From Flavobacteriaceae bacterium (GTDB lineage Bacteria; Bacteroidota; Bacteroidia; Flavobacteriales; Flavobacteriaceae), in NCBI GenBank assembly GCA_028284745.1, contig JANQRC010000009.1:1-64000 (forward strand): 64,000 bases of DNA, given 5' to 3'. This document shows positions 44,428 to 46,922 of the stretch, in pieces (the stretch's first letter is position 1; every line of letters begins with the position of its first letter). A model generated the notes under the pieces. It saw only the letters and a list, made by a program, of their open reading frames with translations, was not told where the DNA came from and did no database searches. The position numbers and the translations under genes are program-made.

Positions 44428-44544
44428 CAACTATTAGGCTTGGTGTATCTCGCAAAATACAAGATCTTGCTAACTTTGCTGCCTAAGGCAGATTTATCAT
44501 TAAGGAATCTTTGTCGAGGAGGTATTCGTTTTATTGAACTATTC

Positions 44545-45753
44545 ATGCTAGAAGAAAAGAAAATAGATTATGAGAAGGCGGTGCTGGTAGGCATCATCAA
44601 CAGAGAGCAGAATCAGGAAAAGCTCAACGAATACCTGGACGAGCTCGAATTCCTTACCTATACTGCTGGCGGAAGAGTAGTGAAACGCTTTACGCAACGC
44701 ATGGATGTGCCCAACCCAAAGACCTTTATCGGAACGGGAAAGATGGAAGAAGTACAAACCTTTGTTGAGGAAAACGAAATTGGCGCTGTGATCTTTGATG
44801 ATGAACTCACTCCTGCCCAGCAAAAAAACATAGAGCGTACACTACGTTGTAAGATCATTGATCGCACCGGGTTGATCCTCGATATTTTTGCACAACGAGC
44901 ACAAACCAGCTATGCTCGCACGCAGGTCGAGCTTGCCCAGTACGAATACTTACTACCAAGGCTTGTTGGCCTTTGGACACACCTGGAACGCCAACGAGGT
45001 GGTATCGGAATGCGCGGCCCGGGTGAAACAGAGATCGAGACCGACCGCCGTATCGTTCGTGACCGAATTGCTTTGTTGAAAAAGAAGTTGGCAAAGATCG
45101 ATCGCCAGATGGAAACCCAACGTGGGAATCGTGGAGCGCTGGTGCGTGTCGCCTTGGTAGGATATACCAATGTTGGAAAATCTACACTCATGAACACCAT
45201 TAGCAAGAGCAAGGTTTTTGCTGAGAACAAGCTTTTTGCTACACTAGACACGACAGTTCGCAAAGTTGTCATCGGCAACCTTCCCTTCTTGCTGAGCGAC
45301 ACTGTTGGCTTTATAAGAAAATTGCCCACTCAGTTGGTAGAAAGCTTCAAAAGTACCTTGGATGAAGTACGAGAGGCTGATCTACTGCTACACGTAGTAG
45401 ACATCTCACACCCCAATTTTGAAGAACATATTGCTTCGGTAAATCAGATCTTGAGTGAGATCGATCGTGCCGATAAGCCTTCGATCATGGTCTTTAATAA
45501 GATCGATGCCTACAAACCGCAAGATTTTGATGATACAGATCTTATGATAGAGCGAAGTTCGAAACACTTCTCACTAAACGAATGGCAACAGACCTGGATG
45601 AGCAAAATGGGCGATGATGTACTCTTCATTTCAGCCTTGAGCAAGGAGAATCTGGAAGACTTTAGGAAGAGAGTATATGATAAAGTGCGTGGTATCCATG
45701 TCACACGCTTTCCGTACAACCATTTTCTCTATCCTGAAGAATATGTAGAATAA
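44545..45753 (+). CDS. hflX: HflX, ribosome-associated GTPase
   Basis: The 402-residue cytoplasmic protein from MLEEKKIDYEKAVLVG has the HflX glycine-rich region (GGIGMRGPGETEIETDRR, about 150-168) and the GTPase motifs: GYTNVGKSTLMN (G1, near 208), DTVGFIRKLP (G3, near 252) and FNKIDAYK (G4, near 317). HflX rescues stalled ribosomes by splitting them. The open frame extends 35 codons upstream, but that part is unlike the family. A TAACTTTG element (44471-44478) and a small hairpin (44479-44491) lie in the leader, without a clear -33 box. Confidence 0.95.
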   Translation: MLEEKKIDYEKAVLVGIINREQNQEKLNEYLDELEFLTYTAGGRVVKRFTQRMDVPNPKTFIGTGKMEEVQTFVEENEIGAVIFDDELTPAQQKNIERTLRCKIIDRTGLILDIFAQRAQTSYARTQVELAQYEYLLPRLVGLWTHLERQRGGIGMRGPGETEIETDRRIVRDRIALLKKKLAKIDRQMETQRGNRGALVRVALVGYTNVGKSTLMNTISKSKVFAENKLFATLDTTVRKVVIGNLPFLLSDTVGFIRKLPTQLVESFKSTLDEVREADLLLHVVDISHPNFEEHIASVNQILSEIDRADKPSIMVFNKIDAYKPQDFDDTDLMIERSSKHFSLNEWQQTWMSKMGDDVLFISALSKENLEDFRKRVYDKVRGIHVTRFPYNHFLYPEEYVE

Positions 45754-45868
45754 AAAAGCCTGGCTTTAGTAGTTGGTCATTCCGAACTTGTTTCGGAATC
45801 TCATAATGGTTTAGATGAGATACTGAAATGAATTCAGTATGACACTCTTTGCTAGAGCCAGACTCTTT
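45754..45868. terminator. Terminator-like stem whose loop holds a palindromic repeat
   Basis: An outer stem pairs aaaagcctggctttag (45754-45769) with ctagagccagactcttt (45852-45868) with few mismatches, as expected for a terminator shared by the convergent hflX and DUF3078 genes. The loop contains a 68-base inverted repeat (45776-45843) that begins gtcattccgaacttg and ends aattcagtatgac; each arm carries its own small hairpin. This resembles the dispersed palindromic repeats found between genes in many Bacteroidota. Confidence 0.7.
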
Positions 45869-45886: not shown

Positions 45887-46831
45887 TTAGAAAGAATAGT
45901 TCAACCCTAGCAGCCAATAGGTCTGAAGGTCATTGTCTACATTGTCGAAGCTAGGCTCTGGCTCTGATGGCGTGACCACAGGATCGAAGTTGTCCAATGC
46001 GAAGTTCAACGCTTCCATCGTGTTGCTGCGCAAACCGAAGTCAAAACCTACACCAATGCTCTTCCAAAGGGTATATCCAAAAGAGTTGATCCATGTCCAG
46101 TTAGAATAATCACTTTCCTCATAGCTCTGGAACAAAGACAAGTTACTTTTAAAGCTTATCTGGCCGATCTGGCGTGTATAATCTGCAAAGACCTTGGCGC
46201 CAAGTGACGAGTTGAACACCGTATCCTCATCTGCGAACACAAAATTGTAGTTTAACGGATGAATGGTGACGATCAGGTTGTCGATAGGCGTCCAAGTTGC
46301 ACCCACACCAACATCTAGATAGCCTGGGTCGTTGAAGTTGTTGAGAATTGTAGTGCGATATTCTGCCAACCCCGAGATGGCCCACTTTTCACTTAACCTT
46401 CTACCATACAATGAAGAGATGTTAAAGACATCGGTGGCTTCACGGAAGCCTTCCTCTTCCTCAACCACATCTTTGTCGTCAAACTTTACCCATGTAAGGT
46501 TTACGTTGGCTGCATTGCGCCAGAAGAATTTCTCGCGCTGTAGGTTGGCAAAGCCATTTACCGTGAAGCCTATATTTCCTGATGAAACGTTTGGCGATCC
46601 TTGTGCATACCAATTGTTGAATTCGGATAAGCTGAAACCAATCGTACCAAAAGCACCTGTTTTCCAGCCTGGAAGTGCATCTATCTGCGCTTGAAGTGCA
46701 TCTACCTCTGCCTGAAGCTTCGCAATAGAGTCTTTCTTTGGCGCTTGTTTTGCTTTCAATTCTTCGGCTGTCTGAGCAAAGGAAATCGTTCCTGCCAACA
46801 GCATGCTTGTGAAAATCAATTGTGTTTTCAT
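45887..46831 (-). CDS. DUF3078 family protein, probable outer-membrane barrel
   Basis: The protein (314 residues from the ATG at 46831) has a signal peptide (IFTSMLLAGTISFAQ), a coiled-coil (SIAKLQAEVDALQAQIDAL, about 33-55) and a beta-rich DUF3078 region with GAFGTIGFSLSEFNNWYAQG near residue 60. It ends in Phe (LLGLNYSF), as outer-membrane barrels do. Function unknown. A TATTTTTG element (minus strand, 46853-46860) lies just upstream of the start, without a clear -33 box at normal spacing. Confidence 0.83.
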   Translation of the reverse strand: MKTQLIFTSMLLAGTISFAQTAEELKAKQAPKKDSIAKLQAEVDALQAQIDALPGWKTGAFGTIGFSLSEFNNWYAQGSPNVSSGNIGFTVNGFANLQREKFFWRNAANVNLTWVKFDDKDVVEEEEGFREATDVFNISSLYGRRLSEKWAISGLAEYRTTILNNFNDPGYLDVGVGATWTPIDNLIVTIHPLNYNFVFADEDTVFNSSLGAKVFADYTRQIGQISFKSNLSLFQSYEESDYSNWTWINSFGYTLWKSIGVGFDFGLRSNTMEALNFALDNFDPVVTPSEPEPSFDNVDNDLQTYWLLGLNYSF

Positions 46832-46922
46832 ATCGAACGTGTTTTTCGCGCGCAAAAATAGGCAAACATTTCAATTATGAAATACGAATAGAAGGGGAAA
46901 TCAGATTATCGACGAATGGCAG

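Follow-up and report, generated by a model that had tools for sequence, protein, structure and literature searches.

A CGTC-type REP dimer in the probable loop of an hflX–DUF3078 terminator of a Flavobacteriaceae bacterium appears to be a rare, tolerated insertion

The first 64,000 nucleotides of contig JANQRC010000009.1 from a Flavobacteriaceae bacterium (hereafter, the window) carry a nested hairpin structure at positions 45754–45868 (Table 1). The hflX-type GTPase gene on its left runs on the plus strand and ends at 45753, the DUF3078 gene on its right runs on the minus strand and ends at 45887, and the two genes therefore converge. An outer stem of 13 contiguous base pairs, three of which are G-U, is formed by CTGGCTTTAGTAG in the left arm and TTGCTAGAGCCAG in the right arm. 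It encloses, in the 5' to 3' direction, the trinucleotide TTG, a 68-nt inverted repeat (45776–45843) and the pentanucleotide ACTCT. The inverted repeat consists of two 29-nt arms, which are 76% complementary and separated by a 10-nt spacer, and each arm forms its own hairpin with an 8-bp stem and a 5-nt loop (45779–45799 and 45820–45840). This arrangement of a 68-base repeat with two inner hairpins inside an outer stem was proposed in an earlier sequence-only reading and is confirmed here by sequence and folding: the full structure has an energy of -43.3 kcal/mol (z -4.81), and none of 200 shuffled sequences is equally stable.

Table 1. Features of the hflX–DUF3078 region (positions in the window)
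Feature	Position	Strand	Description
hflX-type GTPase gene	44440..45753	+	ORF; Pfam GTP-bdg_N, GTP-bdg_M, MMR_HSR1; ends directly before the structure
A6 run (plus strand), T6 terminator tail of minus-strand transcripts	45752..45757	-	AAAAAAGCC; many terminators of relatives share this left edge
Outer (terminator) stem, left arm	45760..45772		folding, flank-pairing screen
First REP palindrome	45776..45804	+	8-bp stem, 5-nt loop, GTC tag facing out; 47.9 bits, E 2e-10
Spacer of the REP dimer, 10 nt	45805..45814
Second REP palindrome, inverted	45815..45843	-	GTC tag facing out; 43.4 bits (copy among the model's sources)
Outer (terminator) stem, right arm	45849..45861		folding, flank-pairing screen
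Weak T-rich tail of plus-strand transcripts	45862..45868	+	ACTCTTT
DUF3078 protein gene	45887..46855	-	ORF; Pfam DUF3078

The outer stem displays the features of an intrinsic terminator, namely a GC-containing 13-bp helix located directly after a gene and followed by T6 on the minus strand. The bidirectional terminator suggested by the sequence-only reading holds only in part today: the T6 run serves the minus strand, but on the plus strand the stem is followed only by ACTCTTT and its lower part contains mismatches. The lower right arm, with this ACTCTTT, deviates from the family pattern GGCTTTTTT. When the 68 nt are deleted in silico, the remaining sequence folds into a simple hairpin whose 13 bp close a loop of 8 nt, TTGACTCT, at about -20 kcal/mol on either strand. 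A simple terminator scan, which accepts only loops of 3–8 nt, makes no call at 45754–45868, and a search of the window against Rfam returns no family at the gathering threshold.

A covariance model of the single palindrome (R1), built from 23 copies, finds 41 matches at E<=1 and 30 at E<1e-4 in the source genome, where the source copies match by construction. The 30 stronger matches were grouped into 24 sites, and the 11 others (E 0.003 to 0.96) were left out as sites. The first palindrome of the window is the top-scoring match in the genome, its own copy being included in the model. Pairing is kept in 97.8% of the cells of the 23 copies, a figure biased upward because the copies were partly selected for palindromicity, and five of the eight pairs have changes on both sides. 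In the source genome, a second repeat, with a GC-rich palindrome and CGGGCT, is found near REPs at L154, L158 and L160, and one perfect-stem REP (L139, G000:C32:56829-56857) lies within a reading frame that stays open for 1005 codons or more.

The palindrome is most similar to the CGTC-tagged REPs described by Di Nocera, De Gregorio and Rocco (2013; PMC3733652) in Bacteroidetes and other phyla. According to the accessible passages of that paper, these REPs are for the most part head-to-head dimers, seem to lack a dedicated transposase and prefer intergenic places near 3' ends; their tag is often TGTC and their usual tail is CCA (PMC3733652). The window element shares with them the outward-facing GTC tag (with C or T before it in the majority of copies), the 8-bp stem that starts with A-T pairs and the 5-nt loop (8–9 bp and 4–5 nt in the CGTC superfamily), as well as the arrangement in inverted pairs with GTC outside, the intergenic location near 3' ends and the lack of an associated transposase. 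A CGTC or TGTC tag is carried by 174 of 204 REPs of relatives (among the matches listed) and by 18 of 30 in the source genome; the two window copies read GGTC and TGTC. Unlike the usual CCA of the paper, the tail here is mostly CTC (23/30 in the source genome; 134/204 in relatives, among the matches listed), and the passages of the paper that could be consulted do not name Flavobacteriaceae as a host family. The window element is a head-to-head dimer, same-type dimers being a minority of the 24 source-genome sites and 40 of the 202 elements in relatives' loci (among the matches listed). Mixed pairs of a REP and another palindrome were seen at L141, L155, L156 and L161, without a systematic count. 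Taken by its sequence, the element fits the head-to-head dimers of this already published class.

A REPIN is an inverted REP pair with an associated RAYT transposase. Like the REPINs with RAYT transposases in the available parts of PMC8049555 and PMC6006769, the window element is an inverted REP pair that can be folded into one long hairpin. Unlike them, it resides in a genome (rated 97.8% complete) that has no match to the Y1 transposase family PF01797. Across 119 genomes, REPs at E<=1e-7 are present in 29 (among the matches listed), PF01797 in 41 and both in 13. The association is not significant (13/29 genomes with REPs versus 28/90 others among the matches listed, Fisher P 0.19; counts read by hand from two tables). 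A Y1 transposase was therefore rejected as the mover, as it was not found in the source genome and has no significant association with REPs in relatives. A strict REP-dimer pattern was also abandoned: applied to 397 family genomes it matched the window site only, because the pattern was narrow; R1 found REPs in the 29 of 119 genomes (among the matches listed).

By hflX, the nearest named relatives belong to the Flavobacteriaceae, Flagellimonas among them. Neither the 40 relatives nor the 397 family members examined include a genome of the same genus, and the exact empty site was therefore not seen. A convergent DUF3078-type gene follows hflX in 54 of 110 loci including that of the window, and in 40 of the other 53 its product is at least 57% identical. 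The spacers of these 40 relatives were inspected for the best hairpin anywhere in them with at least 10 bp and a loop of at most 8 nt (counts read by hand). Such a small-loop hairpin is present in 37 of the 40, and in 32 of the 34 with a spacer of at most 350 nt. Many of these terminators read AAAAAAGCCC...GGGCTTTTTT, and the left side of the window structure, AAAAAAGCC, matches that edge. The stems cannot be aligned between species, so the relatives reveal the position and form of the terminator and not a base-exact empty site. Since 37 of 40 relatives carry an ordinary small-loop terminator, the insertion of the REP dimer into a terminator loop is well supported by sequence comparison. The suggestion that the repeat sits in a terminator loop with the stem pairing kept is borne out by these continuous hairpins between the same two genes; the opposite outcome, relatives without a continuous outer hairpin, was not found.

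That an outer stem is not sufficient proof of loop insertion is illustrated by L277 in G060. This site lies downstream of a gene that we take to be aspS-like. Of 23 genomes found for its genus, 22 were read beyond the upstream gene's stop codon (L292 was left out). The REP is present in G060 and G458, and an ordinary AAATCCTGC-type terminator is present in 18 of the other 20, the exceptions being L304, with another insert, and L308, which is different. The left arm of this terminator cannot be recognised in the REP carriers, where the outer stem picked up by the screen is another one, formed between the last part of the aspS coding sequence and sequence inside the insert. L277 was accordingly dropped as a nested case, its outer stem not being the ancestral terminator of its relatives. 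After the aspS-like gene of G459 (L304), a different insert of ~36 nt separates AAATCC from GGATTTTTT, at a position occupied in the sisters by a short terminator loop.

In principle, the window stem might likewise have arisen with the REP or after it, e.g. through a template switch in which one flank was copied in inverted orientation, and would then not be an old terminator. L277, with its 18 of 20 REP-free congeners bearing an ordinary terminator with another stem, provides a similar case. In the window, however, the stem contains GC pairs, shows the A6/T6 edge known from terminators of the relatives and occupies the same spacer, and neither of its arms lies within a coding sequence, which makes such a late origin quite unlikely.

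In the source genome, only the window site (L137) among the 24 REP sites has an outer stem, and just one of 552 swapped pairs of flanks from these sites pairs as well as the true flanks of the window site. Several other copies adjoin separate terminators (L138, L143, L151 and L158). The screen was extended to 203 elements, i.e. the 24 source-genome sites and 179 elements from relatives (among the matches listed), which were retained out of 202 after removal of those too near a locus end or in a repeated context. An outer stem of at least 13 contiguous base pairs is found in four of the 203 (among the matches listed), compared to 20 of 5075 swapped flank pairs, a control count raised by some composite-repeat flanks; the nested class is therefore small. 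The four are the window site, L183 in G021 (15 contiguous pairs), L213 in G043 (14 contiguous pairs) and L277. In the spacer that corresponds to L183, G264 of the same genus carries a terminator with a small loop; for L213, the same is true of G444, while the downstream region of G445 differs and is uninformative. The predicted empty sites of the nested cases fold into simple hairpins. Judged by these sequences, three nested cases stand and L277 falls. In G060, the locus L212 (G060:C8:792610-795143) carries REPs every 233–344 nt inside direct repeats of 195–300 nt.

Of the 62,886 intergenic bases in 80 named hflX loci, 403 belong to terminator loops. After weighting for gene orientation, chance alone would place about 1.5 of the intergenic elements in loops, and three are seen (Poisson P 0.19; 0.065 if four are counted). 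Because the terminator finder errs on the side of caution, the real expected number may be larger. These figures suggest that loop insertion occurs at a rate that would need no targeting. The REPs of relatives avoid divergent spacers (5/140 among the matches listed versus 111/467 background regions), which agrees with the preference for 3' ends reported earlier (PMC3733652, as far as its accessible text goes). In the source genome, 4 of 24 sites fall in divergent spacers by crude ORF calls, which weakens the avoidance there. The idea that the repeats favour terminator loops is not supported by this comparison: 23 of 24 source-genome sites have no outer stem, which is the lack of terminator preference named beforehand as evidence against it, and loop insertions over the 203 elements are close to the chance rate.

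A directed process, e.g. an enzyme that acts on single-stranded or extruded hairpin DNA and guides REP dimers into hairpin loops, could be invoked because the relative-supported nested cases come from three genera, because the accessible passages of PMC3733652 report REP dimers nested in palindromes in three other bacteria, and because of the excess of outer stems over swapped flanks (4/203, among the matches listed, versus 20/5075). It is nevertheless very improbable, given that a single source-genome site in 24 is nested, that three supported cases fit an expectation of 1.5, and that PF01797 was not found in the source genome and is not tied to REPs across the 119 genomes (Fisher P 0.19, among the matches listed). 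A rare and tolerated insertion, rather than a targeted one, is what the sequence data suggest.

At equilibrium, the outer stem forms with a probability of 0.964 with the REP pair, 0.992 without it and 0.946 on average with shuffled inserts. The stem forms nearly as well around shuffled inserts, so the repeat needs no special property, and the folding model predicts that most inserts of 68-nt length would be tolerated. Self-folding of the insert as the cause of stem survival was rejected at equilibrium on the same comparison (0.964 versus 0.946). The composite might instead have been kept for exceptional strength as a terminator or insulator separating hflX from DUF3078, as its full structure is more stable on the plus strand than the predicted empty site (-43.3 versus -20.0 kcal/mol). 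Yet relatives manage with plain terminators, and the REP adds little to the outer helix itself (-23.1 when it is present, -21.2 at the empty site and -22.9 for the mean of shuffled inserts). The insulator idea of the sequence-only reading draws on the fold and has only a slim chance of being correct.

The sequence evidence thus makes it likely that a REP dimer of a known class inserted into the loop of the native hflX/DUF3078 terminator and was tolerated since both arms remained intact. An ordinary intrinsic terminator, common to convergent hflX and DUF3078 genes, would have predated the REP at this exact site, and a CGTC-tagged head-to-head dimer would have entered its short loop. With both arms spared, the terminator could still function, presumably with a strong U-tract on the minus strand and a weak one on the plus strand, and the insertion would then have survived selection. 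REPs settle mainly in the spacers that follow genes, most of them beside terminators or elsewhere and a few in loops by chance. The anatomy of the site, the class of the REP, the ordinary terminators of relatives between the same genes and the rarity of nesting are observed directly. The observation is sound and its explanation is an ordinary one.

REPs or REP dimers nested in larger palindromes have been reported in A. variabilis, T. roseum and H. neapolitanus (accessible passages of PMC3733652). As in the window, a REP dimer lies inside a larger palindrome there, but each of those families has one recurring surrounding palindrome, whereas the surrounding stems here are unrelated native terminators. 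A literature search, conducted mostly without subscription papers, found no report of REPs in native terminator loops.

The part most worth following is the loop of G269. L281 of this genome has the same outer arms as L213/L280 of G043, but its loop content is inverted and 50 nt shorter: 46 of 47 aligned bases match in the flipped orientation and 34 of 43 in the unflipped one, and the 50-nt deletion merges the REP pair into one. Eight other REPs common to both genomes keep their orientation. At another site shared by the two genomes, a CTGAACTTGTTTCAG-type palindrome in G043 (L355) corresponds to a CCTGCGAAGGCAGG-type palindrome in G269 (L348), as if one REP type had been replaced by the other. 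A REP dimer between terminator arms might behave as an invertible cassette, in which hairpin-driven strand switching turns and shortens the enclosed DNA and the arms are preserved by selection; this idea is tentative and, on balance, unlikely. If true, terminator loops would be long-lived shelters where REPs get turned round and whittled down. G043 and G269 offer a natural case of arm-enclosed DNA inverted between close relatives, usable for the study of hairpin-driven inversion, and the nested sites together give relative-checked examples of a short repeat that appears to have entered a native terminator with its stem unbroken and with no targeting needed.
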